From Modestobacter lapidis (GTDB lineage Bacteria; Actinomycetota; Actinomycetes; Mycobacteriales; Geodermatophilaceae): DNA of 64,000 bases. The position numbers and the translations under genes were made by a program. The stretch is from positions 62,001-126,000 of the forward strand of contig JABAKE010000007.1 in the NCBI GenBank assembly GCA_019779905.1. Direction: 5' to 3'. How positions within the stretch are numbered: the first letter of the stretch is position 1; every line of letters starts with the position of its first letter. Of this stretch, positions 6,532 to 55,714 are shown piece after piece. Below the pieces are notes generated by a model that saw nothing but the letters and a program-made list of their open reading frames with translations, had not been told where the DNA came from and ran no database searches.

Positions 6532-8670
6532 GTGTCCCAGCACCCCGTCGGGGCCCACCCCGCCGCTCGTCCCGCCGCTCCCGATCCCGCCGACGATCCC
6601 GTCCTGGCCGCCGAGCGCGTGCACCTGGCGGTCGCCGCCGACTGCCTGACCCGGATGCGTACCGCGAGCACGGCGGTCACCGACGCCGGGGTCGACGCCT
6701 GGGCCGCCGAACGCCTCGGGGCCGCCCGCGCCGAGCGCCTGCTCGCCTTGGCCGCCGACCCCGGCGTGCCGGCGTTCTTCGGCCGGATCGACGGCGGTGC
6801 GGCCGTCGGCGGGAACCCCGCGGCCGGGGAGACCTTCCACATCGGCCGCCGGCACGTCCGGGACGCGGCCGGCGACCCGGTGGTGATCGACTGGCGGGCG
6901 CCGATGAGCCGGTCGTTCTACCAGGCCGGCCCCGCCGATCCGCAGGGCGTCGCGCGCCGTCGCCGGTTCGGCTTCGCCGGTGGGGAGCTCACCAGCTACG
7001 AGGACGAGATTCTCTCCGCCGACCAGGAGCCGGCCCCCTTGCAGGGTCCCGCGAGCTCGCGAGCGGTGGGGGGCAAGGGGGTCCTGTCACTGCTCCGGCA
7101 GGAGATCGAGCGGCCCCGGAGCGGGCCGATGCGCGACATCGTCGCCACCATCCAGCCCGACCAGGACGACATCGTGCGCGCGCCGCTCGGCGAGTCGATC
7201 TGCGTGCAGGGCGCGCCGGGCACCGGCAAGACCGCGGTGGGGCTGCACCGGGCGGCCTACCTCCTCTACACCCACGGTGGGCAGCTGGCCCGCACCGGCG
7301 TGCTGGTGGTCGGGCCCAACCGGGCGTTCCTGCGCTACATCGAGCAGGTGCTGCCCACCCTGGGCGAGGTCGACGTCGACCAGGCCACGGTCGCCGACCT
7401 CACCGCGCGGGTGCCGGTGCGGGGGGTGGACCCGCCGGAGGTCGCCGTCCTCAAGGGGGACGCGCGGATGGCCGAGGTGCTGCGCCGCGCGCTGTGGGCC
7501 GGGGTGGTCAAGCCGGTGGACTCGGTGCAGGTGACGCTGGCCGGCCGGAAGTACCGGGTGTCGGAGCAGCGGCTGCGCCGCTGCGTCGACGACCTGCGCC
7601 GGGCCGGGACGGGATCGCTGGACGACCAGCAGGTGGTGCACTACGCCGCCGGCCGGGAGCGGCTGGCGATGGCGGTGGCGGAGGACGCCCGCCGGCAGCA
7701 GGAGGCAGGCGGGGGCAGCCCGACCGACGCCGAGACGCGGACGACCGCGCGCAGCCGGGAGGTGCGGGCCTGCTGCGACGCGGTGTGGCCGGCCGTGGAC
7801 GCCGCCGGCCTGGTCTGCGGCCTGCTCTCGGATGCCGGTCGGCTGGCCCGGGCCGCCCGGGGCGTGCTGACCGAGGCGGAGCAGGCGCTGCTGGTCTGGT
7901 CCGCGCCGCCGCGCTCGGTGCGGTCCGCGCGGTGGAGCGCTGCCGATGCGGTGCTGGTCGACGAGGTGGCCGGGCTGCTGACGCGCACCCCCGGCTACGG
8001 GCACGTCGTCGTCGACGAGGCGCAGGACCTCTCCCCGATGCAGTGCCGGGCGGTGGCCCGCAGGCTGGCCGCCGGATCGCTCACCGTGCTGGGTGACCTG
8101 GCCCAGGCGACCAGCCCGTGGTCGAGCACCGACTGGGCGCCGACGCTGGCCGGGCTCGGCCGGCCGGACACTCCGGTGCGGCCGCTGACCCAGGGCTACC
8201 GGGTGCCCGGGGAGGTGCTCGACTTCGCCAACCGGCTGCTCCCGGTGATCGCCCCCGGGCTGCCCTCGGCCACGGCCACCCGCCGGGACGCCGGCTCGCT
8301 GGACGTGCGGCCGGTGACGGCGATGGCGGGCCCGCTGGCCGAGGTGGTGGGCCGGCTGGCCGCGGCACCTGGCTCCACCGGCGTGGTCTGCGCCGACGCG
8401 GACGTGCCCGACGTCGCAGGGATGCTCCGGGCCGCCGGCCTGGACGTCGCCGTGCTGGCCGACGACGGGTCCGCGCCGGAACGGGTCTGCGTCGTCCCGG
8501 CCGGGCTGGTCAAGGGGCTGGAGTTCGACTCCGTCGTGGTGGTCGAGCCGGCCGCGATCGTGGCCGCCGAGCCGCGGGGCCTGCACCGGCTCTACGTCGT
8601 CCTGACCCGTGCGGTGAGCAGCCTGGTGGTGCTGCACCGCGGCGACCTCCCGGAGCCGCTCGCGGGCTGA
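6532..8670 (+). CDS. HelD-like UvrD/Rep-family ATPase carrying an in-frame palindromic repeat
   Basis: A 712-residue superfamily-1 ATPase. Walker A GAPGTGKTAV lies near residue 226, the Q-motif-like stretch MRDIVATIQPDQDDIVRAPL just before it, Walker B VVVDEAQDLSPMQ near 492, and the C-terminal motif YVVLTRAVSSLVVLH. The layout (N-terminal extension, DWRAPMSRSFYQA, then the split ATPase) is that of HelD/HelR proteins, which free stalled RNA polymerase and in some actinobacteria give rifampicin tolerance. Residues about 167-185 (PAPLQGPASSRAVGGKGVL) are encoded by the repeat at 7032-7089, lying between the conserved DEILSADQE and LLRQEIERP segments. Start is GTG 6532; a nearby alternative cannot be ruled out. 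Confidence 0.85.
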   Translation: MSQHPVGAHPAARPAAPDPADDPVLAAERVHLAVAADCLTRMRTASTAVTDAGVDAWAAERLGAARAERLLALAADPGVPAFFGRIDGGAAVGGNPAAGETFHIGRRHVRDAAGDPVVIDWRAPMSRSFYQAGPADPQGVARRRRFGFAGGELTSYEDEILSADQEPAPLQGPASSRAVGGKGVLSLLRQEIERPRSGPMRDIVATIQPDQDDIVRAPLGESICVQGAPGTGKTAVGLHRAAYLLYTHGGQLARTGVLVVGPNRAFLRYIEQVLPTLGEVDVDQATVADLTARVPVRGVDPPEVAVLKGDARMAEVLRRALWAGVVKPVDSVQVTLAGRKYRVSEQRLRRCVDDLRRAGTGSLDDQQVVHYAAGRERLAMAVAEDARRQQEAGGGSPTDAETRTTARSREVRACCDAVWPAVDAAGLVCGLLSDAGRLARAARGVLTEAEQALLVWSAPPRSVRSARWSAADAVLVDEVAGLLTRTPGYGHVVVDEAQDLSPMQCRAVARRLAAGSLTVLGDLAQATSPWSSTDWAPTLAGLGRPDTPVRPLTQGYRVPGEVLDFANRLLPVIAPGLPSATATRRDAGSLDVRPVTAMAGPLAEVVGRLAAAPGSTGVVCADADVPDVAGMLRAAGLDVAVLADDGSAPERVCVVPAGLVKGLEFDSVVVVEPAAIVAAEPRGLHRLYVVLTRAVSSLVVLHRGDLPEPLAG
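7032..7089 (-). repeat. Palindromic stop-codon element, intragenic copy
   Basis: A copy of the repeat family that otherwise lies at 3' ends of genes. Read on the minus strand it begins TGA-C-AGGACCCCC, then the arm GGACCCCCTTGC, a core with CGCTCGCGAGCTCGCGGGACCC, and the complementary arm GCAAGGGGGCC. Arms pair over about 11 bp with one extra base. It sits inside the HelD-like gene in antisense orientation and keeps the reading frame open. Confidence 0.85.
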
Positions 8671-8674
8671 TGGA

Positions 8675-9094
8675 CTACAGCTCGGCGTTCGACGCCCAGC
8701 GAGCCAGTGCGCCCGCGAAGGCGTCGAGGTCGCCGACCAGTTCCACGTTGGCGACTACTCGGCGATCGTCGACCTCGGCGTACTCGTGGACGAGGATGTT
8801 GCGGAACCCGACCGCGACGGCGACCGACTCGGCCGTGGCTGCATCGACGATGGTGTGCCTGCCCAGCAGGCGGACGGCGTCGGCGTTGCTCTCGGGCATT
8901 CCGAGCCCCTCCGACGCGACGACGTGCTGCGCAGCTCGCACGCAGCCCTCGATCGCCGTCACGAACCCGTACTTGATGGCGCGCAGGCGCACTGCGTCGC
9001 TGTCCCAGCCGGGCGGCTCGGCCGTATTCCGGATGTCAGCAACGTCGCGACGGATACGGGCAATCGTGCGTCCGAGACGTTCAGCGTCGACCAC
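8675..9094 (-). CDS. hepT: HepT-like ribonuclease toxin (DUF86)
   Basis: A 139-residue helical protein with the HEPN toxin signature R-x4-H-x-Y, seen as RNILVHEY near residue 98. HepT proteins are RNases that are neutralised by a partner MntA nucleotidyltransferase, which AMPylates the HEPN tyrosine; the tyrosine is present here. The start lies 14 bases inside the end of the upstream mntA-like gene, so the pair is translationally coupled. It ends 4 bases from the end of the convergent helicase gene. The toxin role is inferred from the family and the partner gene. Confidence 0.85.
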   Translation of the reverse strand: MVDAERLGRTIARIRRDVADIRNTAEPPGWDSDAVRLRAIKYGFVTAIEGCVRAAQHVVASEGLGMPESNADAVRLLGRHTIVDAATAESVAVAVGFRNILVHEYAEVDDRRVVANVELVGDLDAFAGALARWASNAEL

Positions 9095-9455: not shown

Positions 9456-9690
9456 GCCGACACTCTTCCACCCGTTCTCCGTCGCAGACCAGCGGAACAC
9501 AGGGTGATGTCCCGTCTGACGTGGTGGTCGAGGACCCGGTCGACGACCTCGACCACGAAGGCCTGATCGAGGTCGCCGTCCACGGGGGCCGGCGCAGCGA
9601 GCACGCCGTCCCCACCTCGCGGGCGGGTGGCGGCCGTGGAGGCGGCCCCGGGCAGCCGACCGGGGCCGTTCGTCCCTAGGCTCTGCGGGC

Positions 9691-10548
9691 ATGGCCTCCT
9701 CGCTCCGCACCGAGCTGCGGGCGCCCGCACCGCCCGTCGCGTTGGCCGACCGGGACCCGCGCGCCACGCCGCAGGCGCCCGGCGACAAGGAGCGCACGCG
9801 GGAGCAGCTGGCCGTCGACGGCCGCCGGCTCGCCGACCTGCAGGAGCGCCTCTACGCCGAGGCCGCCGTCGGTGGCCGGCGGCGGGTCGTGGTGGTGCTG
9901 CAGGGCATGGACACCAGCGGCAAGGGTGGGGTGATCGAGCACGTCGTCGGCGCGGTCAGCCCGCAGGGCCTCTCGATCACCAGCTTCACCGCCCCCACCC
10001 CCGAGGAGCTGCGGCACTCCTTCCTCTGGCGGGTGCGCCGCGCCGTTCCCCGGCCGGGGAGGATCGGCGTCTTCGACCGTTCGCACTACGAGGACGTGCT
10101 CATCGGCCGGGTACGCGAGCTGGCCACCCCGGCGGTGATCGAACGCCGATACCGCGAGATCGTCCGGTTCGAGGAGCAGCTGGCCGCCGACGACGTGACG
10201 CTGGTCAAGTGCTTCCTGCACATCTCGCCGTGGGAGCAGAAGGAACGGCTACTCGCCCGCCTGGACGACTCCGCGAAACGGTGGAAGCTCAGTCCCGGGG
10301 ACCTCGACGACCGCGCCCTGTGGCCGGCCTACCAGCGGGCTTACGAGACGGTGCTGGAGCGGACCAGCACCGACGGCGCCCCCTGGTACGTCGTCCCCAG
10401 CGACCGCAAGTGGTATCGCAACTGGGCCGTGGGCCGGCTGTTGCTGGAGACGCTGACCGACCTCGCCCCGCGGCTGCCCGAACCGGCCTACGACGTCGAG
10501 GCACAGCGCGACCGGCTCATCGACGAGGCGCCGCTGCCCGCCTGGTGA
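9691..10548 (+). CDS. ppk2: Polyphosphate kinase 2 family protein
   Basis: A 285-residue PPK2. The P-loop is QGMDTSGKGGVIEHVVGAV near residue 70, the Walker B-like FDRSHYEDVLIGRV near 127, and the lid region CFLHISPWEQKERLLARLDD follows. PPK2 enzymes transfer phosphate between polyphosphate and nucleoside mono- or diphosphates. The single-domain length (about 280) fits class I or III members; the sequence seen does not fix the nucleotide preference. The ATG lies 10 bases after CTAGGCTC, with no strong ribosome site. Its stop codon is the first base triplet of a palindromic element. Confidence 0.88.
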   Translation: MASSLRTELRAPAPPVALADRDPRATPQAPGDKERTREQLAVDGRRLADLQERLYAEAAVGGRRRVVVVLQGMDTSGKGGVIEHVVGAVSPQGLSITSFTAPTPEELRHSFLWRVRRAVPRPGRIGVFDRSHYEDVLIGRVRELATPAVIERRYREIVRFEEQLAADDVTLVKCFLHISPWEQKERLLARLDDSAKRWKLSPGDLDDRALWPAYQRAYETVLERTSTDGAPWYVVPSDRKWYRNWAVGRLLLETLTDLAPRLPEPAYDVEAQRDRLIDEAPLPAW

Positions 10549-10603
10549 AGGACCCCCTCCTCCCCGCCCCTCGCAAGCTCGCGGCGGTGCCCTGGAGGGG
10601 GCC
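10546..10603 (+). repeat. Palindromic stop-codon element, copy after ppk2
   Basis: Starts with the ppk2 stop codon TGA, then arm AGGACCCCCTCC, core with CCCCTCGCAAGCTCGCGGCGG, and arm GGAGGGGGCC. It ends at the stop codon of the convergent YihY gene. Forms a strong hairpin and probably terminates both transcripts. Confidence 0.85.
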
Positions 10604-11494
10604 TCACGCTGGGCGGCCACGCCGCAGCCGGTCGTCCAGGGCGAGGGTGAACAGCCAGCCGGCGATGACCACCAGGTGCAGCAGGAACAGCCAGAAGCCC
10701 AGGGCGACCGCCCCGCCGACGACGTCCAGCCCGCCGAACGGGGCGCCGAGGTCCAGTGGCAGGGCCAGGAACAGCACGAATCCCTGCAGGAACCCCGACA
10801 GGCTGGCCGCGGTGAACAGCGCGCCGACGGCGACCGCCGACCAGCGCAGCCGGCCGGCGGCGACGATCCGGAACCCCCACGCCAGCGGCACGGTCAGCGC
10901 AGCGAGCACCGAGTAGTAGCCCACCGCGAAGCCGCCGATCGCGGGGCCCACGCCGGACCGCTCGGCCAGGTCGGCGAGCTCCCGGCCGGCCAGCAGCAGC
11001 GGGTACAGCAGCAGCGGGGTCACCACGACCAGGGGCAGGGCCAGCAGCCGCCCGCGCCAGGCGGTGAACCGGTCGGGCGCCGGGCTGAATCGCAGCAGCG
11101 CCCGCCGGAGCCCCTCGCCGTACAGCGAGATCGGCAGCAGGGTGAGCAGCGCCTGGAGCGGGGCGAGCGCCACGCCGGCGTCCACCAGCCGGGCCAGCGC
11201 ATCGGGGGCGCCCAGGTCGGCGGGCAGCACCTCGGCCAGCCGGCCGGCGAGCGAGCGGACGGCCTCGCCGCTGGTCAGCCAGGCAGTGAGGCCGAGGGCC
11301 AGGACCAGCAGTGGAACGACGGCGATCCCGGCGTAGAAGGTGAGGCCGGCGGCGATCAGCGCGGTGTCCCGGCCGCGCAGCTGGGTGCGGATGGCGCGCA
11401 CCAGCCCGCGTCCCTCGGCTCGCACCCACGCCCCGCGCACCGGCCCATGCCACCAGGTGCGGACCGGTCCCGCCCGTCGGGAGCCCGCGGTCAA
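10604..11494 (-). CDS. YihY/UPF0761 (BrkB-type) membrane protein
   Basis: About 296 residues with six hydrophobic segments and the family motif AAGLTFYAGIAVVPLLVLALG at the first helix (near residue 45), plus the conserved ...FAVGYYSVLAALTVPLAWGFRI region. YihY/BrkB proteins are integral membrane proteins of unsettled function; some were once called ribonuclease BN, which is now considered wrong. I placed the start at TTG 11494, overlapping the stop of the upstream oxidoreductase gene (TTGA); GTG codons slightly downstream are alternatives. The overlap suggests cotranscription with that gene. Confidence 0.78.
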   Translation of the reverse strand: MTAGSRRAGPVRTWWHGPVRGAWVRAEGRGLVRAIRTQLRGRDTALIAAGLTFYAGIAVVPLLVLALGLTAWLTSGEAVRSLAGRLAEVLPADLGAPDALARLVDAGVALAPLQALLTLLPISLYGEGLRRALLRFSPAPDRFTAWRGRLLALPLVVVTPLLLYPLLLAGRELADLAERSGVGPAIGGFAVGYYSVLAALTVPLAWGFRIVAAGRLRWSAVAVGALFTAASLSGFLQGFVLFLALPLDLGAPFGGLDVVGGAVALGFWLFLLHLVVIAGWLFTLALDDRLRRGRPA

Positions 11495-13651: not shown

Positions 13652-14770
13652 ATGGCGAGTTCCCGCATGCCTGCCCGCCGCCGGGTCTTCACCGGCCGAC
13701 GGGTGCTCGTCACCCTCGTCGCCGCCACCGGTGTCGCGCTCTCTCCCCTAACCGCGCACGCCGTTCCCGAAACGCCGGGCACCTCCCAGGAGGCCGCGGC
13801 CCTCGTCGCCGCCCGCGGGCACGACCTCGAGGTCGTCACCGAGAAGTTCAACGACGCCCGCGTGCAGCTCGAGGCCCAGCAGGCCGCCGCCACGAAGGCC
13901 GCCGAGGACGTCGCCGCCGCGGACGCCGCCGTCGCCGAGGCCCGGAACAAGGTCCGCGAGGTGGCCCGCAGCGCCTACACCGGCGACCAGCTGAGCACCC
14001 TCCAGGCGATGCTGACCAGCGAGTCCACCGACGAGCTGCTCGACCGGATCGGCACGCTGGACACCATCGCCCAGCACAACAACGGCATCCTCGGGGCGGC
14101 CCAGCAGGCCACCGAGACGGCCGCGACGAGCAAGGCGGCCGCCGACCGGGCCGCCGCCGAGGCCACGGCCCAGCTCGACCGGGTGGCGGCCCAGCAGGCC
14201 GACCTGCAGTCGCAGATCGCCGAGTACCAGGCCCAGTACGACCGGCTCAGCGCGCAGGAGCGGGAGCGGGCGCGGCAGCTCGCCGAGCAGGCGCACGCCG
14301 CTGCCGCGGCCCGCTCGACCGCCATCGACCGCACCGACCGCGAGGCGCCCGCCGCCAGCCGGTCCACGCGCGGCGGCTCCGTGCCGGCGCCGTCCGCCCC
14401 GGTGGTGGCCAGCAGCTCGGCGGCCGGTACCGCGGTGAACGCCGCCATGGGCAAGCGCGGCGCGCCCTACGTCTGGGCCGCCGCCGGGCCAGGCTCGTTC
14501 GACTGCTCCGGCCTGGTGCAGTACGCCTACAAGGCCGCCGGGATCTCCGTGCCGCACTCCAGCCGGATCCAGGCCACGATGGGCCGGGCCGTGTCCCGCG
14601 CCGAGCTGCAGCCGGGCGACCTGATCGCCTTCTACAGCCCGGTGAGCCACATCGGCATCTACATCGGCAACGGCCAGATGGTGCACGCCCCGACGTCGGG
14701 TTCCGTGGTGAAGGTGGTCAGCATCGACGTCATGGGCAGCATCACCGCCATGCGCCGGATCGCCGGCTGA
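13652..14770 (+). CDS. Secreted NlpC/P60 peptidoglycan endopeptidase, RipA-like
   Basis: From ATG 13652 the protein has 372 residues: a basic start (MPARRRVFTGRR), a hydrophobic signal segment ending AHA near residue 39, a long coiled-coil-like alanine/glutamate/glutamine region (about 45-230), a short linker, and a C-terminal NlpC/P60 domain. The catalytic cysteine is in FDCSGLVQYAYKAAG (near 283) and the histidine in VSHIGIYIGNGQMVHAP (near 333). Such enzymes cut the D-Glu-mDAP bond in wall peptides during growth or division. AAAGGAAA lies about 13 bases before the ATG; GTG 13625 is an in-frame alternative. Controlled by the upstream riboswitch. Confidence 0.88.
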   Translation: MASSRMPARRRVFTGRRVLVTLVAATGVALSPLTAHAVPETPGTSQEAAALVAARGHDLEVVTEKFNDARVQLEAQQAAATKAAEDVAAADAAVAEARNKVREVARSAYTGDQLSTLQAMLTSESTDELLDRIGTLDTIAQHNNGILGAAQQATETAATSKAAADRAAAEATAQLDRVAAQQADLQSQIAEYQAQYDRLSAQERERARQLAEQAHAAAAARSTAIDRTDREAPAASRSTRGGSVPAPSAPVVASSSAAGTAVNAAMGKRGAPYVWAAAGPGSFDCSGLVQYAYKAAGISVPHSSRIQATMGRAVSRAELQPGDLIAFYSPVSHIGIYIGNGQMVHAPTSGSVVKVVSIDVMGSITAMRRIAG

Positions 14771-14830
14771 GGAAGGACCTTCCTGCCCCCCACCGCTCGC
14801 ACGCTCGCGGCGGGACCCTGCAGGGAGGCC
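14768..14830 (+). repeat. Palindromic stop-codon element, copy after NlpC/P60 gene
   Basis: Starts with the gene's TGA, then GGAAGGACCTTCCTGC, core CCACCGCTCGCACGCTCGCGG, and arm GCAGGGAGGCC. A degenerate partial copy (CCGTTCGCAGGCTCGCGGCG) follows at about 14838-14870. Confidence 0.8.
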
Positions 14831-14888
14831 GCACCACTCCCGTTCGCAGGCTCGCGGCGAGCCGCTGAACCGGGCCGTTCCAACGAAT

Positions 14889-21880: not shown

Positions 21881-21943
21881 GGCCCCGCTGCAGGGTCCCG
21901 CCGCGAGCTTGCGAGTGGCGGGGGGCAGCGGGGTCCTTCTTCA
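21881..21943 (-). repeat. Palindromic stop-codon element, copy after ptsH
   Basis: On the minus strand it starts with the ptsH stop codon TGA, then AGAAGGACCCCGCTGC, core CGCCACTCGCAAGCTCGCGG, and arm GCAGCGGGGCC. It separates convergent E2 and ptsH genes. Arms pair over 11 bases. Confidence 0.88.
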
Positions 21944-22201
21944 GTCGGCATCCAGATCGGCGGCGACCAGGTCCGCGATCCGGGTGAGGACCGTCTCGTC
22001 GTCGCTGGTGACGGTGACCTCGGTGCCCTGCTTGGCGCCCAGTGTCATGATCATCAGTGGCGATCCGGCGTCCACGGCCGTGCCGCCGGCCGTGGCCAGG
22101 GTGACGGGCACGCCGGCCTTGGTGACGGCCTCGGCGATGAGCCCGGCAGGGCGGGCGTGCAGGCCGACGGTGGAGCCGACGGTCACGGTGGTGCTGGGCA
22201 T
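21941..22201 (-). CDS. ptsH: HPr phosphocarrier protein
   Basis: An 86-residue HPr. The phosphorylated histidine is in VGLHARPAGLIAEAV (His15), and the second landmark is DAGSPLMIMTLGAKQGTEVTV, where serine 46 of low-GC HPr would lie (MIMTLGAK; no typical HPr-kinase serine context). It carries phosphate from enzyme I to the fructose EIIA domain. AGGAAGAGG lies 6 bases before the ATG. It follows fruA by 43 bases and closes the fru operon. Confidence 0.92.
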   Translation of the reverse strand: MPSTTVTVGSTVGLHARPAGLIAEAVTKAGVPVTLATAGGTAVDAGSPLMIMTLGAKQGTEVTVTSDDETVLTRIADLVAADLDAD

Positions 22202-28252: not shown

Positions 28253-28408
28253 ATGAGCAGCGTGACCTCCAGCTGGCGAGCCCGTCGGCAGGCGGCGCGT
28301 ACCCGGCGGGCCCTGGACCTCGCCGTGGCCCGCACCAGCAGCCCCGCGATGCGCGACGAGCTGCTGACCCTGGCGAACAGCACCCCGTTCGGCCCCGCCC
28401 CGCGCTGA
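28253..28408 (+). CDS. Small basic hypothetical protein (51 residues)
   Basis: ATG follows GAGAGAAGG by 6 bases, a strong ribosome site. The protein starts MSSVTSSWRARRQAARTRRA and continues with an amphipathic helix (LDLAVARTSSPAMRDELLTLANS), ending PFGPAPR. It is short and strongly basic at the N terminus. I do not recognise a named family. The AT-rich upstream region, good ribosome site and a downstream palindromic element at its stop codon support a real gene. Confidence 0.65.
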   Translation: MSSVTSSWRARRQAARTRRALDLAVARTSSPAMRDELLTLANSTPFGPAPR

Positions 28409-28467
28409 AGCAGGACCCCCTCCTCCGCACCCCCGCACAGGCTCGGGGCGAACCGCTGGAGGGGGCC
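28406..28467 (+). repeat. Palindromic stop-codon element, copy after 51-residue gene
   Basis: Starts with the gene's TGA, then AGCAGGACCCCCTCC, a more diverged core (CCCCGCACAGGCTCGGGGCG), and arm GGAGGGGGCC. Arms pair over 10 bases although the core has drifted. Confidence 0.8.
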
Positions 28468-30726: not shown

Positions 30727-30789
30727 GGCCCTCCTGCAGGGTCCCGCCGCGAGCCTGCGAGTGGTGGGGGGCCGGAGGGGCCTTCCTCA
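30727..30789 (-). repeat. Palindromic stop-codon element, copy after phosphatase gene
   Basis: On the minus strand: TGA stop codon of the phosphatase gene, GGAAGGCCCCTCC, core CCACTCGCAGGCTCGCGGCGG, and arm GGAGGGCC. Lies between convergent cyclase and phosphatase genes. Confidence 0.85.
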
Positions 30790-31623
30790 GGTCCGCAGCC
30801 GCGCACGCAGCGCGGCCTGCTCGCCGGCGCCGAAGCCGTGCTCGGTCAGCCAGCCGACCGGCCCGCCGTGCCGTTCCTCGAGCACCTCCAGCACCCGGCG
30901 CATCGTCTCGGCCCGCGGCGTGTGGGTGGCGACGTCGCGGGTGGTCATGTCCGCGGCGTAGGTGGGGCTGGTCGCGAGCCGGGCCACCAGCGCGTCGATC
31001 ACCTCCGCGGTCAGCGCGTAGTCGGCGACGATCGCCGCGGGCTCGACGTCGGCGACCGCCAGGGCCAGGGCGGAGACCACCCCGGTGCGGTCCTTGCCCG
31101 CCGCGCAGTGCACCACGGCGGCCCCCGTCCCGGCGGTGAGCGCACGCAGGGCGGCGAGCACGTTGTCCCGGCCGTCGACCAGGTAGCCCAGGTAGGCCCG
31201 GACCGCCGGCGGCTCGTCCTCGGCGCCGGGGGCGGTCTGCCGGGGCAGCAGCGACTCGCCCCAGTCGGCGGGCAGCCGGCTGCGCACCTCCTCGTCGTCC
31301 TCCTCGCCGGCGAAGACGTCGGTGCGCCGGCCGCGCTCGGGAAGCAGGGTGAAGTGCCGGTGGGTCACCGTCGCGACGTCGCGCAGCGGCCCGCGGCCCT
31401 CGAGCAGGATCTCCGCGGTGGTGCGCAGGTCGACGACGTCGGTCAGCCCGAGCCCGCCGACCAGACGGTCGACGTCGGCCGGGCTGAGGCTCTGCAGGTT
31501 GTCACTGCGCAGCACCCGGCCGTGCACCGTCTTGCCGCCGTCCCGGGTCGGCAGGCCACCGAGGTCACGGGTGTTCGCCGTCCCCTGCAGCGGAACCCAG
31601 CGGCCGGTGCGGATCGAGGTCAC
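30787..31623 (-). CDS. Tyrosine/lipid phosphatase family protein (PtpB-like)
   Basis: A 278-residue protein from GTG 31623. The N terminus WVPLQGTANTRDLGGLPTRDG and the P-loop VVHCAAGKDRTGVVSALAL near residue 170 match the PtpB/DUF1-type bacterial protein tyrosine phosphatases, in which the lysine after CAAG broadens specificity to lipid phosphates. GLTDVVDLRTTAEI holds the general-acid region found in the family. Its stop codon begins a palindromic element, and the glycosylase-like gene lies 31 bases upstream on the same strand. Confidence 0.85.
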   Translation of the reverse strand: MTSIRTGRWVPLQGTANTRDLGGLPTRDGGKTVHGRVLRSDNLQSLSPADVDRLVGGLGLTDVVDLRTTAEILLEGRGPLRDVATVTHRHFTLLPERGRRTDVFAGEEDDEEVRSRLPADWGESLLPRQTAPGAEDEPPAVRAYLGYLVDGRDNVLAALRALTAGTGAAVVHCAAGKDRTGVVSALALAVADVEPAAIVADYALTAEVIDALVARLATSPTYAADMTTRDVATHTPRAETMRRVLEVLEERHGGPVGWLTEHGFGAGEQAALRARLRT

Positions 31624-34566: not shown

Positions 34567-34675
34567 GGCCCCGCTGCAGGGCCCCGCGCCGAGCCCGCGA
34601 GGCGGCCGTCGGTCAGGCCCCGTCCCGGGCCCCGCCCTGAGCTTGCGAAGGGTGGGGAGGACGGGGCCTTCCTCA
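34567..34675 (-). repeat. Palindromic stop-codon element, full plus partial copy after acyl-CoA dehydrogenase
   Basis: The full copy (34616-34675) reads on the minus strand TGA-GGAAGGCCCCGTCC, core CCCTTCGCAAGCTCAGGGCGG, arm GGACGGGGCC; the arms are a perfect 10-bp pair. A truncated second copy (34567-34605; GGCCCCGCTGCAGGGCCCCG) lies just beyond it. Confidence 0.8.
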
Positions 34676-36517
34676 GAAGGCGGCCTCGTCGACCTCCATC
34701 AGCGCGTTGTCGGTGTTCTCCACGATGGTCCGCTCGCTGGTCAGCGTGGGCAGCACCTGGGCGCAGAAGAAATGGGTGGCGGCCAGTTTCCCCTCGTAGA
34801 AGTGCCGGTCCCGGTCGGTCACGTCGCCGGCCAGCGCGGCCAGGGCCACCTCGGACTGGCGGACCAGCAGCCACCCGGTGATCAGGTCGCCGACCGCCAG
34901 CAGCAGCCGGGAGGTGTTCTGGCCGACCAGGTACAGCTTCGTGGGGTCCTGCTGGGCCGCGGTGAGGTGGCCGAACATCGCCGTCAGCATGCCCTGCACG
35001 TCGGCCAGGGCGGTGGCGAGCAGGGCCCGCTCCTCCTTGAGCCGGCCGTTGCCGACCTCGGCGTCGATCGTGGCCTGCACCTGGCCGGCCAGCCAGGTCA
35101 GCGCCACCCCGCCGTCCCGGACGATCTTGCGGAAGAAGAGGTCCTGGCCCTGGATCGCCGTCGTCCCCTCGTAGAGGGTGTCGATCTTGGAGTCCCGGAT
35201 GTACTGCTCGATCGGGTAGTCCTGCAGGTAGCCCGAGCCGCCGAGCGTCTGCAGCGACTCGCTGGTGAGCAGCTGGGTGGCCCGCTCGGAGCCGAAGCCC
35301 TTGACGACCGGCAGCAGCAGGTCGTTGACGCGGGCGGCCAGCCGCGCCTGCTCGCTGTCGGCGGTGCCGGCGGCCTCGGCCTCCATCACCTGGTCGCGGA
35401 AGGTCGCGGTGTACAGGTACAGCGCCCGCATGCCCTCGGCGTAGGCCTTCTGCCGCATCAGCGAGCGGCGGACGTCGGGGTGCTGGGTGATGGTCACCCG
35501 CGGCGCGTCCTTGGCCGGGGCGGCGAGGTCGGCGCCCTGGACCCGCTCCTTGGCGTAGGCCAGCGCCACCTGGTAGCCGGCGGAGAGGGTGGCGATGGCC
35601 TTGGTGCCGACGAACATCCGGGCGTACTCGATCACCTTGAACATCTGGGCGATGCCGTCGTGCACCTCGCCGACCAGCCGGCCGACGGCCGGGACCGGGC
35701 CGTCGCCGAAGGTGAGCTCGCAGGTCGTGGAGACCTTGAGCCCCATCTTCCGCTCCACGTTGGTGACGTACACGCCGTTGCGCTCGCCGAGCGCGCCGGT
35801 CGCGAGATCCACGTGGAACTTGGGGACGACGAACAGCGACAGCCCCTTGGTGCCCGGCCCGGCACCCTCCGGGCGGGCCAGGACCAGGTGGACGATGTTG
35901 TCCGCCAGGTCGTGCTCGGCCGAGGTGATGAAGCGCTTGACGCCGCTGATGTGCCAGGAGCCGTCGTCCTGCCGCACGGCCCTGGTGCGCCCGGCGCCGA
36001 CGTCGGAGCCGGCGTCGGGCTCGGTGAGCACCATGGTGGCGCCCCAGAGGTGCTCGATCATCAGCTCGGCGAGGCGCTGCTGGTCCGGGGTGCCCAGCGA
36101 GTGCAGGATCGCCGCGAAGGTGGCGCCCGAGCCGTACATGAAGGCCGCCGGATTGGCGCCCAGCATCATCTCGAACGCCGCCCAGCGCAGGCTGAACGGC
36201 GCACCGAACCCGCCGAGTTCGTCGGGCAGGTCCAGCCGCCACCACTCGCCGGCGTTGACCGCCCGCACCGACTCCTTGAACGACTCGGGCAGCGTGACGC
36301 TGTGCGTCGCCGGATCGAACACCGGCGGGTTGCGGTCGGCGTCGGTGAAGGAGGCGGCCAGCGGGCCCTCGGCCAGCCGGCGCACCTCGGCGAGCACACC
36401 GCGCGCGGTCTCGGCATCCATCTGCTCGAACGGGCCGGTTCCGAACCGGTCCCTGGTGGTCTGGAACTCGAAGAGGTTGAACTCGAGGTCGCGCAGGTTG
36501 GCGGTGTAGTGGCTCAC
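34673..36517 (-). CDS. Acyl-CoA dehydrogenase, long form with C-terminal extension
   Basis: A 614-residue protein from GTG 36517 (CAGGAGC four bases upstream). It is longer than the usual 380-400 residue acyl-CoA dehydrogenase and matches the long bacterial group with N- and C-terminal extensions (FadE5-like). Landmarks: [42 protein letters not shown] (flavin and substrate region), [26 protein letters not shown], and [34 protein letters not shown] near the C-terminal third. FAD-dependent fatty acyl-CoA oxidation is expected. Single gene; its stop codon opens a repeat element. Confidence 0.9.
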
Positions 36518-39076: not shown

Positions 39077-39166
39077 CGGCTCCGCTGCAGGGTCCAGCAC
39101 GCAGCGGCCCCGTCCAGCGGCTCGCCCTGAGCGTGCGACGGGTGCGGGGGACGCAGTCCCTCTTCA
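39077..39166 (-). repeat. Palindromic stop-codon element, degenerate nested copies after TetR gene
   Basis: On the minus strand it opens with the TetR gene's TGA, then AGAGGGACTGCGTCC, core CCCGTCGCACGCTCAGGGCG and GGACGGGGCC. A second fragment (GGCTCCGCTGCAGGGTCC at 39078-39095) lies beyond. Arms of the first copy have decayed. Confidence 0.65.
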
Positions 39167-39802
39167 GGCCGGCTGCTCCTGGGCGATCGCCACGTCGATG
39201 AGCCGCTCGGCCAGCGCGCGCCCGTGCGAGGCGGGGCCGTCGGGGCCGAGCAGGCCGCCGGAGAGGTACATGCCGTCGATGATCAGGTGCACCTGTGCGG
39301 CGAGGTCCTCGGCGTACCCGGGCACGAGCTCGCCGGCCAGGGCGAGCAGCCGCATGTGCAGCTCGTACTTGTAGTCCGCCGCGGCGCTGCGCGCCGGGTG
39401 CTGCGGGTCGTCGTACTCGCTGCTGACGTTGGTGAACGGGCAGCCGCGGAAACCGACCCGGGTGACGTCGGACTCGACGATGTCCACGACCGACAGCAGA
39501 GCGGCGCGGGGATTCCCGTCCAGCCGGTCCAGCTCGGCGTCGACGTACCCCAGCACGGTGGCGGCCTTGCGGCTCAGGTAGGCACCGACCAGGTCGTCCT
39601 TGCTCTTGAAGAGCCGGTAGACCGTCATCTTGCCCAGGCCGGTCTCGCGCACGAGCTCGTCCATGCCGACGCTGCGCGAGCTGCGGGCGGCGAACAACCG
39701 CTCCGCGGTGTCCAGGACGATCTGCTGCCGCTCGGCGCGGGAGCGCCGGAGCGGCGCCTGCCCGTCGTCAGCGGGGTGCAGGGGGAGAGCTGCGGCAGTC
39801 AC
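39164..39802 (-). CDS. TetR-family transcriptional regulator
   Basis: A 212-residue TetR protein. The helix-turn-helix is DTAERLFAARSSRSVGMDELVRETGLGKMTVYRLFKSKDDLVGAYL (residues about 30-75). The ligand-binding part contains ESDVTRVGFRGCPFTNVSSEYDDPQHPARSAA, typical of the YcdC/AcrR-like group whose members have a conserved RGCPF motif. Ligand and targets are unknown; no adjacent gene on the opposite strand shares a short promoter with it, apart from the small ORF region at about 40 kb. Confidence 0.85.
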   Translation of the reverse strand: MTAAALPLHPADDGQAPLRRSRAERQQIVLDTAERLFAARSSRSVGMDELVRETGLGKMTVYRLFKSKDDLVGAYLSRKAATVLGYVDAELDRLDGNPRAALLSVVDIVESDVTRVGFRGCPFTNVSSEYDDPQHPARSAAADYKYELHMRLLALAGELVPGYAEDLAAQVHLIIDGMYLSGGLLGPDGPASHGRALAERLIDVAIAQEQPA

Positions 39803-49008: not shown

Positions 49009-51732
49009 CTAGATCACGACCCCGCTGCAGCCCGCGCTGCAGTCCATCGCCCAGAATCCCGCCCGCAGCGAGGCGTACTTCGCCGTCCGGACGAGCCGCT
49101 CGCCGCGCGGCCCGGCCTTCGTCGGGGTGCCGGCCTCGGCGCCCCCGCCCGCCCCGGCGTCCGGTCCGCTGCCCGGCGCAGGGAGGCTCGGGGCCGGCGT
49201 GCTCGGCGCCGGGGTGCCGGGCGCCGGGGTGCCCGCTCCGGCCACGTAGGTCAACCCGCCGGCCAGCACCGAGGACTGCTGCCCGCTGGCGGAGAACAGG
49301 GTGACGTCGTAGGTGCCCGCCGCCCGGGCGGGTGCCCGGAAGGTCAGCGAGGTCGCCGACCAGCGCACCACGGTCGCCATGGCGCTCGGGCCCACCAGGA
49401 CCCGCGCCCCGGAGGTGATGCCCGACCCGGTGATCGTCACCTCGGTGCCGCCCGCGGTGCCCACCGTGGACGGGGCGATCCGGGTGACCCGGAAGGCGCC
49501 GGTGCTCGGGTAGTCCCTGGAACCGCCGGTGGCCGGCGGGGTGCCGCCCGGGGTCGTGCCGGTACCCGGCGTGGTGCCGGTACCTGGGGTGGTGCCGGTA
49601 CCCGGGGTGGTGCCGGTACCCGGGCTCCCCGTGCTGGGGGGCGTGGTGCCGGTGTCCGGCGTCGGGGTCCCCGTGCCCGGGGTGGTGCCGCTGCCGGGCG
49701 TGGTACCGGGGGCCGGGCTCCCGGTGCTGGGAGGCGTGGTGCCGGTGCCCGGGGTCGTGCCGGGCGTGGTGCCGGTGCCGGGCGTCGGGGTGCCGGGCGT
49801 CGGGGTGCCGGGCGTCGGGGTGCCGGTACCCGGGGTTCCCGTGCTGGGGGGCGTGGTGCCGGTGCCCGGCGTCGGGCTGCCGGGCGTCGGGCTGCCGGGC
49901 GTCGGGCTGCCGGGCGTCGGGCTGCCGGGCGTCGGGGTGCCCGGCGTGGTGCCGGTGCCCGGCGTCGCTCCGGGGCCGGGGGTGGCTGCTGCCGTGCCGA
50001 CCAGCAGCGGAGCCGCCTGGGTGCGGCCCACGGCCTCGCCGTCGCGGTACAGCTGCACGTCCAGCACGTACCGGCCGTCCGCCAGCTCCACCGAGGGGGC
50101 CAGCTCCAGCTGGTCCACCGACGGCCGGCTGCCGAGGGCGAACGTGGCCTGTCCGGCGTCGTCCGTGGTCTGCTCGACGCCGTCCAGCGTGATCCCCGTG
50201 TCGGCCAGCGCCCACGTCTCACCGTCCTGGGCCATGCCGAGGCCGACGGTCACCGACCACTCGCCGGCGGCCGGCGGGCTGGTGACGGTGACCCGGGGGG
50301 TCAGCGTGCCCGCCGGGCCGGTCATGCCGCCGAACCGGTAGGAGGTGGTGGCGGCGATCCGCGACGGCAGGTGGGCGAGCGTGAGCCGCCCGCCGGTGAC
50401 GGACCTGCCGGCGAAGGCGGCGACCGGGTCCACGTCACCGAGCAGCGCCGCCTTGAGCTCGGCCGCGGTGGCCGAGGGCATCAGCGAGCGGTACAGCGCG
50501 ACCGCAGCGGCGACATGGGGTGCGGAGAAGGAGGTGCCGTTGATCGGCCGGTAGCCGCCGTCGTTCCACGTGGTCACGATCCAGCTGCCGGGCGCGAACA
50601 GGTCGACCGATCGGGCGCCGTACGCGGAGAAGGAGCTGACCGTGTCACCGGCCGTGCTGCTCCCCACGGTGATGACGTTGGGGTCCGTCAGGCTGGCCGG
50701 GTACACGATCGAGGTGTCCCGGTTGCCGGCATCGTTGCCGGCCGCAGCCACGACCAGGACGTTCTTGCTGGCGGCGTAGGCCACTGCGGCCTGCAGCGTG
50801 GTCAGCGGGTGGCCGGAGACCGCCCCGCCGAAGGAGGCGTTGACGACTGCCGCGCCGTGGTCCACGGCGTAGCGGATGGCCTCTGCCGCGAGGTACACGT
50901 CCAGCGTGTCGCCGCTACCGACGGCCAGGGGCATGATCGTGGCGTCCGGCGCTATCCCGGCGGAGCCGTGGCCGTTGCCCGCCGCGGCGGCGACGACGCC
51001 GGAGACGGCGGTCCCGTGGCTGCCGCCGGCGCCGTTGTCCACGTCCGCGGAGTTGGCGGCGAAGTTCCAGCCGTGGCAGTCGCCGGCCTTGCCGTTGCCG
51101 TCGGTGTCGACCGCGCCGCAGCGCTCGGCCGGGTTGGTCCACAGCGAACCGGCGAGGTCGGGGTGGTCGGAGTCGAATCCGGTGTCGATGACCGCCACGA
51201 TGACGCCCTGGCCCGTGGTGGCGGTCCAGCCGTCCGTGGCGTCGACGTCGGCGTCAGCGCGGGCGGCCTGCTGGTAGGCGTTGGAGCCGGTGTTCTCCAG
51301 GTTCCAGCCGTACTGCGCCCAGTAGGGATCGGTGACCGAGCCCGCGACGGGCACCGCGGGAGAGAAGTCCACCGTCGCCACGCCCGGCAGCGTCCGGAGC
51401 TCCTGCGGGGTCAGGCCGGCGGTGGCCACCAGCGCGGATCCGTCGTGCAGGGCCTGCGCGGAGTCGACGCCGGCGACGTCGTCCAGTGCGGTGAGGAACT
51501 CCGGCGTCACCGCGCCGTCCGCGGCGGTGAGGACGTACCGGATCAGCCCGTCCCCGGGACCGAACCCCTGGGCGACCGTCAGCGCGGGCTGGGCCAGGGC
51601 GTCGACGGCGGCGGCGCCGCCGAACCCGGTCAGGGCGGCGGCGGCGACCGCCACCACGCGGGTGCGGGTGCGGGTGCTGGTCGACCGGGCCGTGCTCGGT
51701 GGGGCGGCGCTCGGGGTGGGGATGCGTGTCAT
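49009..51732 (-). CDS. Secreted S8 subtilisin-like peptidase with Pro/Gly/Thr-repeat linker and IPT/TIG domain
   Basis: A 907-residue exported protein from ATG 51732, with AGGAGAGG five bases upstream and a signal segment (VVAVAAAALTGFGGAAAVDALA). An inhibitor-like prodomain precedes the subtilase domain with Asp in VIAVIDTGFDSDHPDL (near 180), His in GSHGTAVSGVVA (near 238) and Ser in INGTSFSAPHVAAAVAL (near 399). Residues about 580-725 are a low-complexity linker of TPGTGTTPG and SPTPG units, followed by an IPT/TIG immunoglobulin-like domain (about 735-825) and a Pro/Ala-rich tail ending with cysteines. Likely wall-associated or secreted. Confidence 0.88.
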   Translation of the reverse strand: MTRIPTPSAAPPSTARSTSTRTRTRVVAVAAAALTGFGGAAAVDALAQPALTVAQGFGPGDGLIRYVLTAADGAVTPEFLTALDDVAGVDSAQALHDGSALVATAGLTPQELRTLPGVATVDFSPAVPVAGSVTDPYWAQYGWNLENTGSNAYQQAARADADVDATDGWTATTGQGVIVAVIDTGFDSDHPDLAGSLWTNPAERCGAVDTDGNGKAGDCHGWNFAANSADVDNGAGGSHGTAVSGVVAAAAGNGHGSAGIAPDATIMPLAVGSGDTLDVYLAAEAIRYAVDHGAAVVNASFGGAVSGHPLTTLQAAVAYAASKNVLVVAAAGNDAGNRDTSIVYPASLTDPNVITVGSSTAGDTVSSFSAYGARSVDLFAPGSWIVTTWNDGGYRPINGTSFSAPHVAAAVALYRSLMPSATAAELKAALLGDVDPVAAFAGRSVTGGRLTLAHLPSRIAATTSYRFGGMTGPAGTLTPRVTVTSPPAAGEWSVTVGLGMAQDGETWALADTGITLDGVEQTTDDAGQATFALGSRPSVDQLELAPSVELADGRYVLDVQLYRDGEAVGRTQAAPLLVGTAAATPGPGATPGTGTTPGTPTPGSPTPGSPTPGSPTPGSPTPGTGTTPPSTGTPGTGTPTPGTPTPGTPTPGTGTTPGTTPGTGTTPPSTGSPAPGTTPGSGTTPGTGTPTPDTGTTPPSTGSPGTGTTPGTGTTPGTGTTPGTGTTPGGTPPATGGSRDYPSTGAFRVTRIAPSTVGTAGGTEVTITGSGITSGARVLVGPSAMATVVRWSATSLTFRAPARAAGTYDVTLFSASGQQSSVLAGGLTYVAGAGTPAPGTPAPSTPAPSLPAPGSGPDAGAGGGAEAGTPTKAGPRGERLVRTAKYASLRAGFWAMDCSAGCSGVVI
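49555..49990 (-). repeat. Minisatellite encoding the protease linker
   Basis: Dense tandem repetition of 9-12 base units such as CCCGGGGTGGTGCCGGTA and GTCGGGCTGCCGGGC (the latter four times in a row near 49870-49935). All are multiples of 3, so length changes keep the frame. Expected to vary between strains. Confidence 0.8.
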
Positions 51733-52700: not shown

Positions 52701-52776
52701 CCGTCGTCCCCCGCTCGGCAGGGTGAGATCGATCATGGGCCGGGTGACGAGCGGGGCGGCGGGGTAGGGGCCGCCC

Positions 52777-53553: not shown

Positions 53554-53581
53554 CCGTCCGGGGCCGGCCACCGCGGTGGGG

Positions 53582-54916
53582 TCAGGCGCCCGGCTCCCGG
53601 TGGGCGTGCGACACGGTCACCGGGAGCTCGGCGCCGGCCACCTCGACGTCCGGACCCTGGGCTCCGGCGGCGTCGGTGCGGGATCCCGCGGGGCCGGCGG
53701 CACCGGGCAGCTCGTCGTCGACGTACCGCTCCCGGCAGACGGCCCAGCCGCTGACCAGCAGCAGCGCCACGGCCACGTAGACCAGCACGAACATGCCGGT
53801 GTAGCCGCCCGTGACCCCCCGCAGCACCCCGACCAGCAGCGGTCCGACCCCGGCCAGGACGTATCCCCAGCTCTGGGTCACCGTCGACAGCGCCGCCGTC
53901 GACTCCGGCGTCCTGGCCCGCAGGCCCATCAGGGTCAGCACCATCGCGAACGTACCCATGCCCAGGGCGAGCAGGCTCATCCACAGCCAGGTCGCGGTCA
54001 GCGGCGACACCAGCAGACCGGTCCAGCCGGCGAGGTAGCAGCCGAGGAAGAGCAGCAGTAGCGGCCGCTGCAGGCGCTGCCGGACCGTCAGGGACGGGAC
54101 GACAGCGTTCACCGGGATGACGACCACCGCGTTGAGGCCGAGCAGGAGGCCGGCGGTGGCCGCCGCCATGCCCTGGTCGCGGAGGTACTGCGCGGTCCAG
54201 CCGATGATCACGTAGGCCTGCATCGCCTGCAGCCCGAACATCACCCCCATCGCCCAGGTCAGCCGGCTGCGGGCGAGGGCACGCATCCGCACCGAGCGGT
54301 GCGCGCCGCGCGAGCTGCCCGGCCGGGCCGGCACGGCGAGCCACGGCACCGCGGCCACCAGCGCGAGCGCCGCCCAGATGCCCAGGGCCCAGCGCCAGCC
54401 GTCGGTGCCGATGCCGGCCGCGATGCCCGCCGTGGCGCCGGAGGCCAGGGCGCCGCCGATGGCCATCGAGGTGCCGTAGGCGCCGACGAGCAGGCCGGTC
54501 CGCTCGGGGAAGTACCGCTTGACCAGGCCCGGGAGCAGCACGTTGCCCAGGGCACCGCCGGCCATCGCCGCGACCGTGCCCAGCACGAACAGCGCGAACG
54601 AGCCGGCCACCGCCCGCCCCACCAGCCCGAGGGCCATGGCCAGCATCGCGGCGGCGAGCACGTGGCCGTCGCGGAAGCGGGCGGCCAGCGGCGGCCCGGC
54701 CAGACCCAGGAGGGCGAAGCACAGGACGGGCAGCGTCGTGATGACCCCGGCCGCGGCGGAGGACACGCCGAGTCCGTGCTCGATCTCGGCGAGCACCGGA
54801 CCGACCGAGTTGACCGCCGTGCGCAGGTTCAGCCCGGTGAGCACGATCGCCGCACCGACGAGCAGCAGGCCCCGCCGGCCCGGGGCGGACGGCGGCGCGG
54901 GGGTGGTGCGGGTCAC
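53582..54916 (-). CDS. CynX/NimT-type MFS transporter
   Basis: A 444-residue protein with twelve predicted helices starting GLLLVGAAIVLTGLNLRTAVNSVGPVLAEIEHGLGVSSAAAGVITTLPVLCFALLG. The L-N-L-R-T/P-A-V-x-S-V-G/P-P motif after helix 1 is the mark of the CynX/NimT (cyanate/nitroimidazole) family of the major facilitators. Substrate here is unknown. The last 45 residues are a hydrophilic tail (ELPGAAGPAGSRTDAAG). GTG start 54916. Upstream on the same strand is the DUF-type membrane protein gene. Confidence 0.87.
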   Translation of the reverse strand: MTRTTPAPPSAPGRRGLLLVGAAIVLTGLNLRTAVNSVGPVLAEIEHGLGVSSAAAGVITTLPVLCFALLGLAGPPLAARFRDGHVLAAAMLAMALGLVGRAVAGSFALFVLGTVAAMAGGALGNVLLPGLVKRYFPERTGLLVGAYGTSMAIGGALASGATAGIAAGIGTDGWRWALGIWAALALVAAVPWLAVPARPGSSRGAHRSVRMRALARSRLTWAMGVMFGLQAMQAYVIIGWTAQYLRDQGMAAATAGLLLGLNAVVVIPVNAVVPSLTVRQRLQRPLLLLFLGCYLAGWTGLLVSPLTATWLWMSLLALGMGTFAMVLTLMGLRARTPESTAALSTVTQSWGYVLAGVGPLLVGVLRGVTGGYTGMFVLVYVAVALLLVSGWAVCRERYVDDELPGAAGPAGSRTDAAGAQGPDVEVAGAELPVTVSHAHREPGA

Positions 54917-54960
54917 GACCGGTCATCGTCCTCCGACGACCGGGCCGCAGCGCCCCGGGG

Positions 54961-55521
54961 TCAGCGCGTGCCGCTGACGGTGACCTGCACCTCCGCGACC
55001 GGCCGGCTGGTGCCGTCGGCGGCGACCTGCCGCAGGACCAGCCGGTGCGGACCGTCGCCGGCCGGGGTGGCCACCGTCAGGGTGGGGCTCAGGCACTGCT
55101 GCAGCTCCAGCTGCGGGCCGGCCGCCGACTCGGTGTAGGAGACGGTGCTGCCGGCGTTCCCGCGCACCGGTACGCCGTCCAGGGTGACCACGTAGAGCAC
55201 GCCGTCGGGGCCGGTGAGCCGGAACCGGAGCGGCTGCCCGGCCGTGACCGCGCTGGTCTCCACGCCGATGGCCGGGGTGCGGCAGTCGGCGGCCAGGGGC
55301 ACCGGCTCGGCACCGCGACCACCGATCGCCGCCAGCACGGCCATGACCACCACCGCGACCGCCAGCCAGGTCCAGTGCCGGCTGCGGTGCACCGGGGGAC
55401 GGTCGTCGGCGAGCGCCCGCTCGTCGTTGACGTCACGGGCGTAGTGCATCCGGGTGCGGCGGTTGCCGGCAGCCAGCTCGGCGTCCGCCCGGCCCCGGGC
55501 GCCGCCGAAGACGAAACTCAC
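54961..55521 (-). CDS. Hypothetical single-pass membrane protein
   Basis: A 186-residue protein from GTG 55521. A basic cytoplasmic start (about residues 1-45), one membrane helix (WTWLAVAVVVMAVLAAIGG near 50-68), then an extracytoplasmic beta-rich domain (LRFRLTGPDGVLYVVTLDGVPV, PAGDGPHRLVLRQVAADGTSRPVAEVQVTVSG) with two cysteines (near 80 and 142) that may form a disulphide. Not assigned to a named family. It lies 44 bases upstream of the MFS gene on the same strand. Confidence 0.7.
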   Translation of the reverse strand: MSFVFGGARGRADAELAAGNRRTRMHYARDVNDERALADDRPPVHRSRHWTWLAVAVVVMAVLAAIGGRGAEPVPLAADCRTPAIGVETSAVTAGQPLRFRLTGPDGVLYVVTLDGVPVRGNAGSTVSYTESAAGPQLELQQCLSPTLTVATPAGDGPHRLVLRQVAADGTSRPVAEVQVTVSGTR

Positions 55522-55553
55522 GCCGCCCAGTGTCCCTGGTGACGCGCTGGAGC

Positions 55554-55714
55554 GGCCCCCGTGCAGGGTCCCGCGCCGAGCTTGCGAGGGGTGGGGGGCG
55601 CGGGCGGCCCCCGTGCAGGGTCCCGCGCCGAGCGTGGTGACGTGCTGGAGCGGCCCCGCTGCAGGGGCCCGCCGCGAGCTCGCGAGCGGTGGGGGGCAGC
55701 GGGGTCCTTCTTCA
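55554..55714 (-). repeat. Palindromic stop-codon elements, three tandem copies after Fe-S reductase gene
   Basis: Copies start (plus-strand coordinates) at 55554, 55606 and 55652. The copy next to the gene (55652-55714) is complete: minus strand TGA-AGAAGGACCCCGCTGC, core CCACCGCTCGCGAGCTCGCGG, arm GCAGCGGGGCC. The other two share GGCCCCCGTGCAGGGTCCCG. The flank GGTGACG(C/T)GCTGGAGCGG occurs before the first and third copies, so a unit of about 98 bp was duplicated. Confidence 0.85.

Follow-up and report, generated by a model that had tools for sequence, protein, structure and literature searches.

Closest described repeats

The mycobacterial interspersed repetitive units (MIRUs) are intergenic repeats of actinobacteria that enter at TGA sites in a fixed orientation and also occur in tandem forms; they lie within operons at stop/start overlaps and carry small ORFs. 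The hairpin repeat that we describe here, met in a 64-kb window of Modestobacter DNA (the whole stretch analysed), shares their actinobacterial host, intergenic position, TGA sites, fixed orientation and tandem forms, and differs from them in being rare in tight operons. Integron attC sites also sit behind stop codons, with GTT/AAC as their core sites, whereas neither GTT nor AAC occurs in the consensus of our repeat, be it the 57-nt or the 55-nt one.

Among palindromic repeats, the GTAG and CGTC REPs are described in the available part of PMC3733652 as high-copy short palindromes, mostly intergenic, in dimers or clusters, with some copies in ORFs. The ORFs next to them are reported often to take their TAG stop from a REP terminus, and the CGTC REPs also occur without a dedicated transposase (same excerpt). 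As far as that excerpt goes, our repeat is alike in being a high-copy, mostly intergenic palindrome with dimers, clusters and some copies within ORFs, but it has a longer hairpin with very variable, covarying stems, lies mostly 0-4 nt after sense stops and belongs to an actinobacterial family in 76 genomes of which no Y1 transposase was found. Stop lending has thus already been reported for GTAG REPs, and the present repeat is a variant. The rickettsial palindromic elements mentioned there resemble it through in-frame insertion in protein genes, whereas our repeat is mostly intergenic, at stop codons. Finally, hairpin clusters as terminators and the compensatory evolution of terminators are the subjects of PMC8355165 and PMC5381666, respectively, in their available parts. 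In the open-access literature we found no description of the repeat itself, and an earlier one may exist.

Architecture and copies in the window

The repeat starts with (R)GAAGGACC, conserved across copies (5' logo RGA-AGGACC, n = 166 copies), and ends with GGCC. In between, an outer stem of 11 bp, variable in sequence with its pairing kept, encloses an inner stem and a near-constant apical loop, TCGCRNGCTC. The stems covary: when column pairs are ranked by mutual information, the top seven all belong to stems, and pairing reaches 92-98% in six of these (68% in pair 22-35). Such covariation exceeds the needs of a passive insert and hints at a function. Folded as gene-sense RNA, the nine full copies of the window have only a modest overall advantage over shuffles; in two (30727 and 39106) the hairpin is not the best fold, and the sense-strand fold is no better than shuffles. 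Rfam matched only a tRNA and a riboswitch in the whole window at gathering level, leaving the repeat unmatched, and gave zero matches at E<=1 for 55480-55800, the sole stretch queried at that level.

A previous sequence-only reading of the window had described these nine copies, and a sequence check found every one of them where and in the direction it had placed them; each reads TGA, 0-3 bases, AGGACC, AGGCCC or GGGACT, arm, core, arm and GGCC. The outer arms are unlike between copies yet mostly complementary. Its partial copies are present as well, tandem ones included.

On the forward strand, the copy at 10546..10603 (+) has AGGACC directly after the TGA stop of 9691-10548(+) and occupies the entire gap up to the convergent gene 10604-11401(-). 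The copy at 14768..14830 (+) follows the stop of 13703-14770(+), labelled NlpC/P60 by the sequence-only reading, and the 3' part of a second copy lies at 14840..14876 (+). The full copy at 28406..28467 (+), of the shorter subtype, follows the TGA of a weak 19-aa ORF. On the reverse strand, full copies at 21881..21943 (-), 30727..30789 (-) and 55652..55714 (-) follow the stops of 21941-22201(-) (previously labelled ptsH), 30787-31623(-) and 55712-58000(-), with two tandem partial copies at 55554..55632 (-). The copy at 34616..34675 (-) follows the stop of 34673-36517(-), previously labelled acyl-CoA dehydrogenase, a stop that is conserved in orthologues without the element; a partial copy lies downstream of it at 34567..34602 (-). 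A decayed copy at 39106..39166 (-) follows the stop of 39164-39802(-) and adjoins a partial 3' arm remnant at 39078..39105 (-).

The ninth full copy, at 7032..7089 (-), has a 3-nt deletion in its core and lies antisense and in frame inside a helicase-like gene, 6619-8670(+). The insert is missing in five relatives at this gene; it carries TGAC, a tetranucleotide that is lacking in both orthologues whose DNA was obtained (five tried). Its TGA ends no likely gene, and the 516-aa ORF opposite the helicase-like gene has zero Pfam matches. The earlier claim that in the eight intergenic copies the TGA is the stop codon of the neighbouring gene stands in the sense that each of these TGAs closes a called ORF, but at 28406 the stop is unproven because the preceding ORF is just 19 aa long and scores weakly.

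Copy number and distribution

A covariance model, the check proposed along with the earlier claims, found matches well beyond the window, in its own genome and across the family. All these counts are lower bounds, as the number of candidates scored per genome was capped (150, 144, 50 or 28, depending on the search). The own genome holds at least 152 matches, with E values down to 4.5e-14, and these include 22 or more partial tandem units; 23 copies in an unselected 400 kb extrapolate to roughly 270 genome-wide. Within the Geodermatophilaceae, at least 99 of 112 genomes have a match, and there were none among the candidates scored in 196 genomes sampled from elsewhere in the class. So far, the repeat is found in a single actinobacterial family. 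A strict pattern gave 17 exact matches versus 0 when reversed, and one narrow query each of viral contigs and plasmids returned no match. Most of the 166 copies examined are intergenic, and nested, tandem and intragenic copies also occur.

Position relative to stop codons

The 166 copies comprise 53 of 56 from contiguous stretches, 82 of 89 from density-picked stretches of the own genome and 31 of 48 from best-hit loci. Left out were four truncated hits (three contiguous, one density-picked), six density-picked tandem partials and 17 best-hit copies (8 tandem or partial, 7 covered by other stretches and 2 in L026). With genes taken from our own codon-usage calls and not from annotation, 132 of the 166 start -1 to +4 nt past a sense stop codon, and in 88 of these the distance is exactly 3 nt; among random non-coding positions, 60 of 3131 do so. 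By set, in the order above, the counts are 44/53, 65/82 and 23/31, and among the best copies of other genera 24 of 30 are placed -1..10 nt past a sense stop. The fixed position and orientation claimed for the window are thus supported in the genus and, for the best-scoring copies, in other genera, and scoring by stop distance and orientation, as had been proposed, gives a non-random result. Among copies without a sense stop, 14 of 27 also have no stop triplet at -1..4. An upstream C before the stop (72% vs 61% background) is not special.

Copies are rare within tight operons: where neighbouring genes run in the same direction, the residual gap is below 20 nt in 3% of 68 element-bearing pairs versus 36% of 656 element-free ones. 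For convergent pairs, the figures are 48% of 42 and 33% of 322.

Filled and empty sites

Comparing homologous gene ends, as also suggested earlier, shows who supplies the stop. At 16 gene ends polymorphic between sister species, read by eye (at one, the empty relative has a one-codon longer end; at another, a single relative is comparable), the stop position is kept at 13 and shifted by one codon at three (L161:5233, L264:11911 and L270:14699). In most cases the element has thus landed behind a stop that was already there, and in some it contributes the stop. At four of the 13 ends with a kept position (by eye), the TGA/TAG identity differs. In one of the hit sets behind these comparisons, 14 of 16 hits were examined. 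TAA is commoner at element ends (9/109 vs 15/964), and one non-genic copy (L166:15273) sits on a TAG already found in three empty sites. That the element provides the stop codon itself consequently holds for a minority of sites; as a general rule it was rejected, as the same stop is found in element-free orthologues at most sites.

The element is gained or lost between species with 93-97% protein identity. Such presence and absence, along with the nested copies and the in-gene copy, bears out the view of a dispersed, spreading repeat. Orthologous stops that carry copies in several species may reflect old vertical inheritance. Some sites lost roughly 10-24 target bases and others none (by eye). 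Unlike a classical MITE, the repeat has no target-site duplication: compared with shuffled pairing, no left/right repeat stood out in more than a handful of copies.

Strand bias

Non-Watson-Crick pairs on the sense strand are mostly A.C (162 vs 12 G.T), alike in same-direction and convergent contexts; a sense A.C is a G.T/G.U on the opposite strand. The argument comes mostly from two inner pairs per subtype, with pairing assigned by us, and outside these the count is 31 versus 11 (p 0.003), plus 38 other mismatches. The opposite strand folds more stably in 158 of 159 copies; since 95% of shuffled controls behave alike, folding energy was not used for strand choice.

Nature of the repeat

We read the repeat as a family-specific, non-autonomous dispersed hairpin repeat (REP/MITE-like) with a preference for stop codons, at a probability of about 60%, the preference being read largely from where surviving copies lie. 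The evidence suggests a repeat that propagates by lodging at stop codons and at times taking their place. Copies would enter by a process favouring stop-like triplets (TGA/TAG), because the 5' end carries or regenerates one (TGA, TAG-A, T+GA or TA+A); the stop would then survive at, or within one codon of, its old place. Selection would afterward purge copies that disrupt a gene or a tight operon. The relevant structure is probably that of one single strand, opposite the upstream mRNA, since departures from pairing are mostly sense A.C.

A more specific version, which we put forward tentatively, is that a folded single DNA strand copies itself into gene ends through short homology with the stop codon, the element carrying its own stop triplet at one end. 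If so, the element could land safely at stop codons with no known transposase involved, and a gene's stop would be reset when the element lands within it. CAGCAGA was rejected as the ancestral 5' end, with only 23 matches in 108 genomes and in mixed contexts.

Rather unlikely is a 3'-UTR hairpin selected as a T-tract-less terminator or mRNA 3'-end protector and copied between genes by recombination. As in intrinsic terminators, a GC-rich hairpin stands behind the stop codon in sense orientation, here at 0-4 nt, its stems covary around near-constant loops, and it is rare in tight operons. This scarcity is possibly a terminator-like polar effect, but it would also follow if copies harmed the ribosome site of the gene behind them. 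Unlike in intrinsic terminators, none of the 166 hairpins is followed on its sense side by a T-rich stretch (>=5 T in 10 nt; 13 have one on the antisense side), relatives keep native hairpins downstream (by eye) and the wobble bias fits the opposite strand; moreover, one copy lies antisense within a gene and loss between close species is frequent. The terminator role proposed by the sequence-only reading is weakened by the missing T-tract, the native hairpins and the wobble.

By analogy with integron attC, the repeat could instead be a strand-specific folded ssDNA substrate of some recombinase. A stem that varies yet stays paired, the constancy of ends and loops, and the opposite-strand wobble would suit this, but the copies stand behind ordinary chromosomal genes and the attC core triplets are missing, so we consider it improbable. 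Still harder to sustain is a REP family mobilised by a RAYT/IS200-type Y1 transposase: copy number, palindromes, nested, tandem and intragenic copies, and the stop codons reported at GTAG REP termini (available part of PMC3733652) recall one, but Y1_Tnp (PF01797) was detected with the Pfam model in 0 of 76 family genomes, the own one included, versus 5 of 14 controls, and the 5' logo of the 166 copies has no GTAG or CGTC tag at the hairpin foot, which largely rules it out. Chance or composition, by which a genome of 75% GC would have GC-rich palindromes behind its stop codons by coincidence, is excluded by the family-restricted covariance matches and the stop adjacency, for all that hairpins are common at high GC and that sense-strand folds beat shuffles modestly or, in two of the nine copies, not at all.

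Meaning for the family

Mobile repeats need safe landing sites, and in nine genera the surviving copies of this one are mostly at stop codons; it is a natural case of gene-end settlement where the genome is compact. Because sister species differ in which copies they have, they make its entry, its loss and its effect on 3' ends directly testable. Throughout the Geodermatophilaceae, the repeat would confuse both the annotation of gene ends and the prediction of terminators.

Distribution of the Hairpin Repeat

All nine copies of the hairpin repeat that the sequence-only reading had located in the window are confirmed, coordinates included. Its layout of TGA, spacer, AGGACC and hairpin is borne out (AGGACC or a variant, with GGCC at the end), while the spacer, put at up to about six bases, measures 0–3 nt. 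Each of the eight TGAs proposed as gene stops closes an ORF in our codon-usage calls, the one at 28408 merely a weak 19-aa ORF. When gene-sense RNA is folded, the hairpin forms in seven of the nine copies and fails to form in those at 30727 and 39106. The copy at 7032 differs in that it sits inside a helicase-like gene (domains UvrD and AAA_19), in antisense direction and keeping the frame; five orthologues of this gene in relatives lack the insert. Stretches L239 and L251, from two genera, also have copies within a coding frame, one that bears a GxSxG-like motif; judged by eye and unaligned, the position seems to be the same in both. A c-di-AMP riboswitch (Rfam RF00379; 13470-13635, plus strand) lies upstream of gene 13703-14770, which carries a copy at its end.

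The element is not restricted to the window but widespread in the family Geodermatophilaceae, to which Modestobacter belongs (NCBI). A first covariance model, built from 11 copies, gave at least 152 matches in the own genome (4.78 Mb, 383 contigs), among which partial tandem units number 22 or more, and matched 23/23 Modestobacter genomes and at least 99 of 112 family genomes, in 9 of 12 genera (E<=1e-6). Among the matches listed, none fell in 16 genomes that share the order but belong to other families, and the own genome was the sole match in a class-wide sample of 197. A second model matched 23 times in 400 kb of the own genome taken without selection, which extrapolates to roughly 270 copies per genome.

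Some copies are nested inside others near the apical loop (L234, L235, L250, L261:2985), and others stand in tandem, where the unit can bring its TGA along (L190). Tandem arrays with a 54-nt period (L012:1559-1821, L013:1345-1557, L190:15195-15409) are joined via the 3' arm or TGACC, and possibly reflect recent expansion or an assembly effect. Dense tandem repeats of 15-18 nt (GTGGTGCCGGTACCCGGG-like) were also seen at 49531-49974 of the window, within called gene 49009-51732 (minus strand).

Placement at Stop Codons

For the position analysis, 166 copies were retained from three second-model scans: the window together with 400 kb from its own genome and, from five relatives, another 340 kb (56 matches), a further 400 kb of own stretches chosen for density (89), and 34 best-hit loci (48). 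The proposed fixed position and orientation relative to stops held: the stop of the upstream gene, in the element's orientation (sense stop), lies at -1 to 4 nt from AGGACC in 132/166 copies versus 60/3131 random non-coding 57-mers (odds ratio 199), and in 44/53 copies of the contiguous sample alone. Most copies have a distance of 3 nt (88), followed by 0 (15), 1 (10), 4 (10), -1 (7) and 2 (2); seven lie at 7 to 29 nt, and 27 have no sense stop within 30 nt, 13 of which still carry a stop triplet ending at -1 to 4. Among the best copies from other genera (n=30), 23 lie at -1 to 3 and one at 10. The spacing varies with stop type (TGA, 3 or 0 in 101/116; TAG, 1 or 4 in 12/12; TAA, -1 in 5/11), as expected from a 5' end (R)GAAGGACC fused to T, TA or TGA; one TAG at spacing 3 was seen in another genus (L200).

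MIRU elements insert at TGA, and integron attC sites also lie behind stop codons. The element partly resembles GTAG REPs, whose ends are reported to supply adjoining ORFs frequently with a TAG stop (PMC3733652). Our search of open papers found no description of this repeat, although an earlier one is possible; stem-loop families are catalogued in PMC2267715, and PMC8266576 gives an account of REP recognition.

A second near-perfect palindrome, GGCCRAAGTCGCGACTTYGGCC, occurs with close variants seven times in 1.2 Mb (window 3653-3674; L142:15826, L142:19615, L152:1231, L155:18412, L156:15434, L180:17097); six of these have a stop codon 1-16 nt away.

Filled and Empty Sites Among Relatives

Across reciprocal best pairs from six species, 26 sites are filled in both, 68 in one and 666 in none. 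Shared filled sites often differ in subtype or arm, as would be seen if copies had arrived repeatedly or if stems change fast. The suggestion that the element itself supplies the stop survives in part. Comparison with relatives shows that the stop ahead of the element is usually the gene's old one. Among four genomes (G001, G004, G013, G018; median protein identity 93-97%), 16 genic sites that are filled in some and empty or reduced to a remnant in others were read by eye. The stop keeps its codon position at 13 of them, with TGA/TAG identity differing at four of the 13, and is moved by one codon at 3/16 (L161:5233, L264:11911, L270:14699). Some insertions lost roughly 10-24 target bases (for example about 15 nt behind 10548) and others none (acyl-CoA dehydrogenase, L268:9508). 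AGGAC scars mark apparent losses (acyl-CoA dehydrogenase in G013), and native hairpins still follow the element at ptsH, the Fe-S reductase and L263:16297.

Stem Conservation and Strand Bias

When column pairs are ranked by mutual information over 95 distinct ungapped copies of 57 nt, the top seven (10-50, 9-51, 22-35, 21-36, 8-52, 7-53, 11-49) all belong to the stem and are 92-98% paired, except 22-35 (68%, owing to A.C); pair 12-48 ranks below two neighbour effects. The 55-nt subtype (34 copies) behaves similarly. The apical loop and the GGACC and GGCC ends are near invariant.

Non-Watson-Crick pairs on the gene-sense strand comprise 162 A.C (G.T on the opposite strand), 12 G.T and 41 other mismatches. 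Same-direction and convergent neighbours show the same bias (A.C versus G.T, 88 versus 3 and 59 versus 7), so antisense transcription from a convergent gene does not account for it. Without two inner pairs per subtype the counts are 31 versus 11, and folding energy gives no guidance, its strand preference being nearly matched by shuffled controls.

Origin and Retention

The element may give a terminator-like benefit; hairpin clusters as terminators are the subject of PMC8355165, and the compensatory evolution of terminators that of PMC5381666. A T-rich tail follows the hairpin in 0/166 copies. Residual gaps below 20 nt occur in 3% of same-direction pairs with the element (n=68) versus 36% without (656), and in 48% (42) versus 33% (322) of convergent pairs; their scarcity in same-direction pairs may come from a polar effect, or just from harm done to the start of the gene that follows.

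A Y1 transposase domain was found in 0/76 family genomes, the own included (5/14 control genomes were positive), and no target duplication was found at the copies; CGTC REPs are likewise reported to be without a transposase (PMC3733652). Given the lack of transposase domain, target duplication and T-rich tail, we hold that the element is a non-autonomous hairpin repeat, which would prefer stop-like triplets and whose copies would be kept where they are least harmful.
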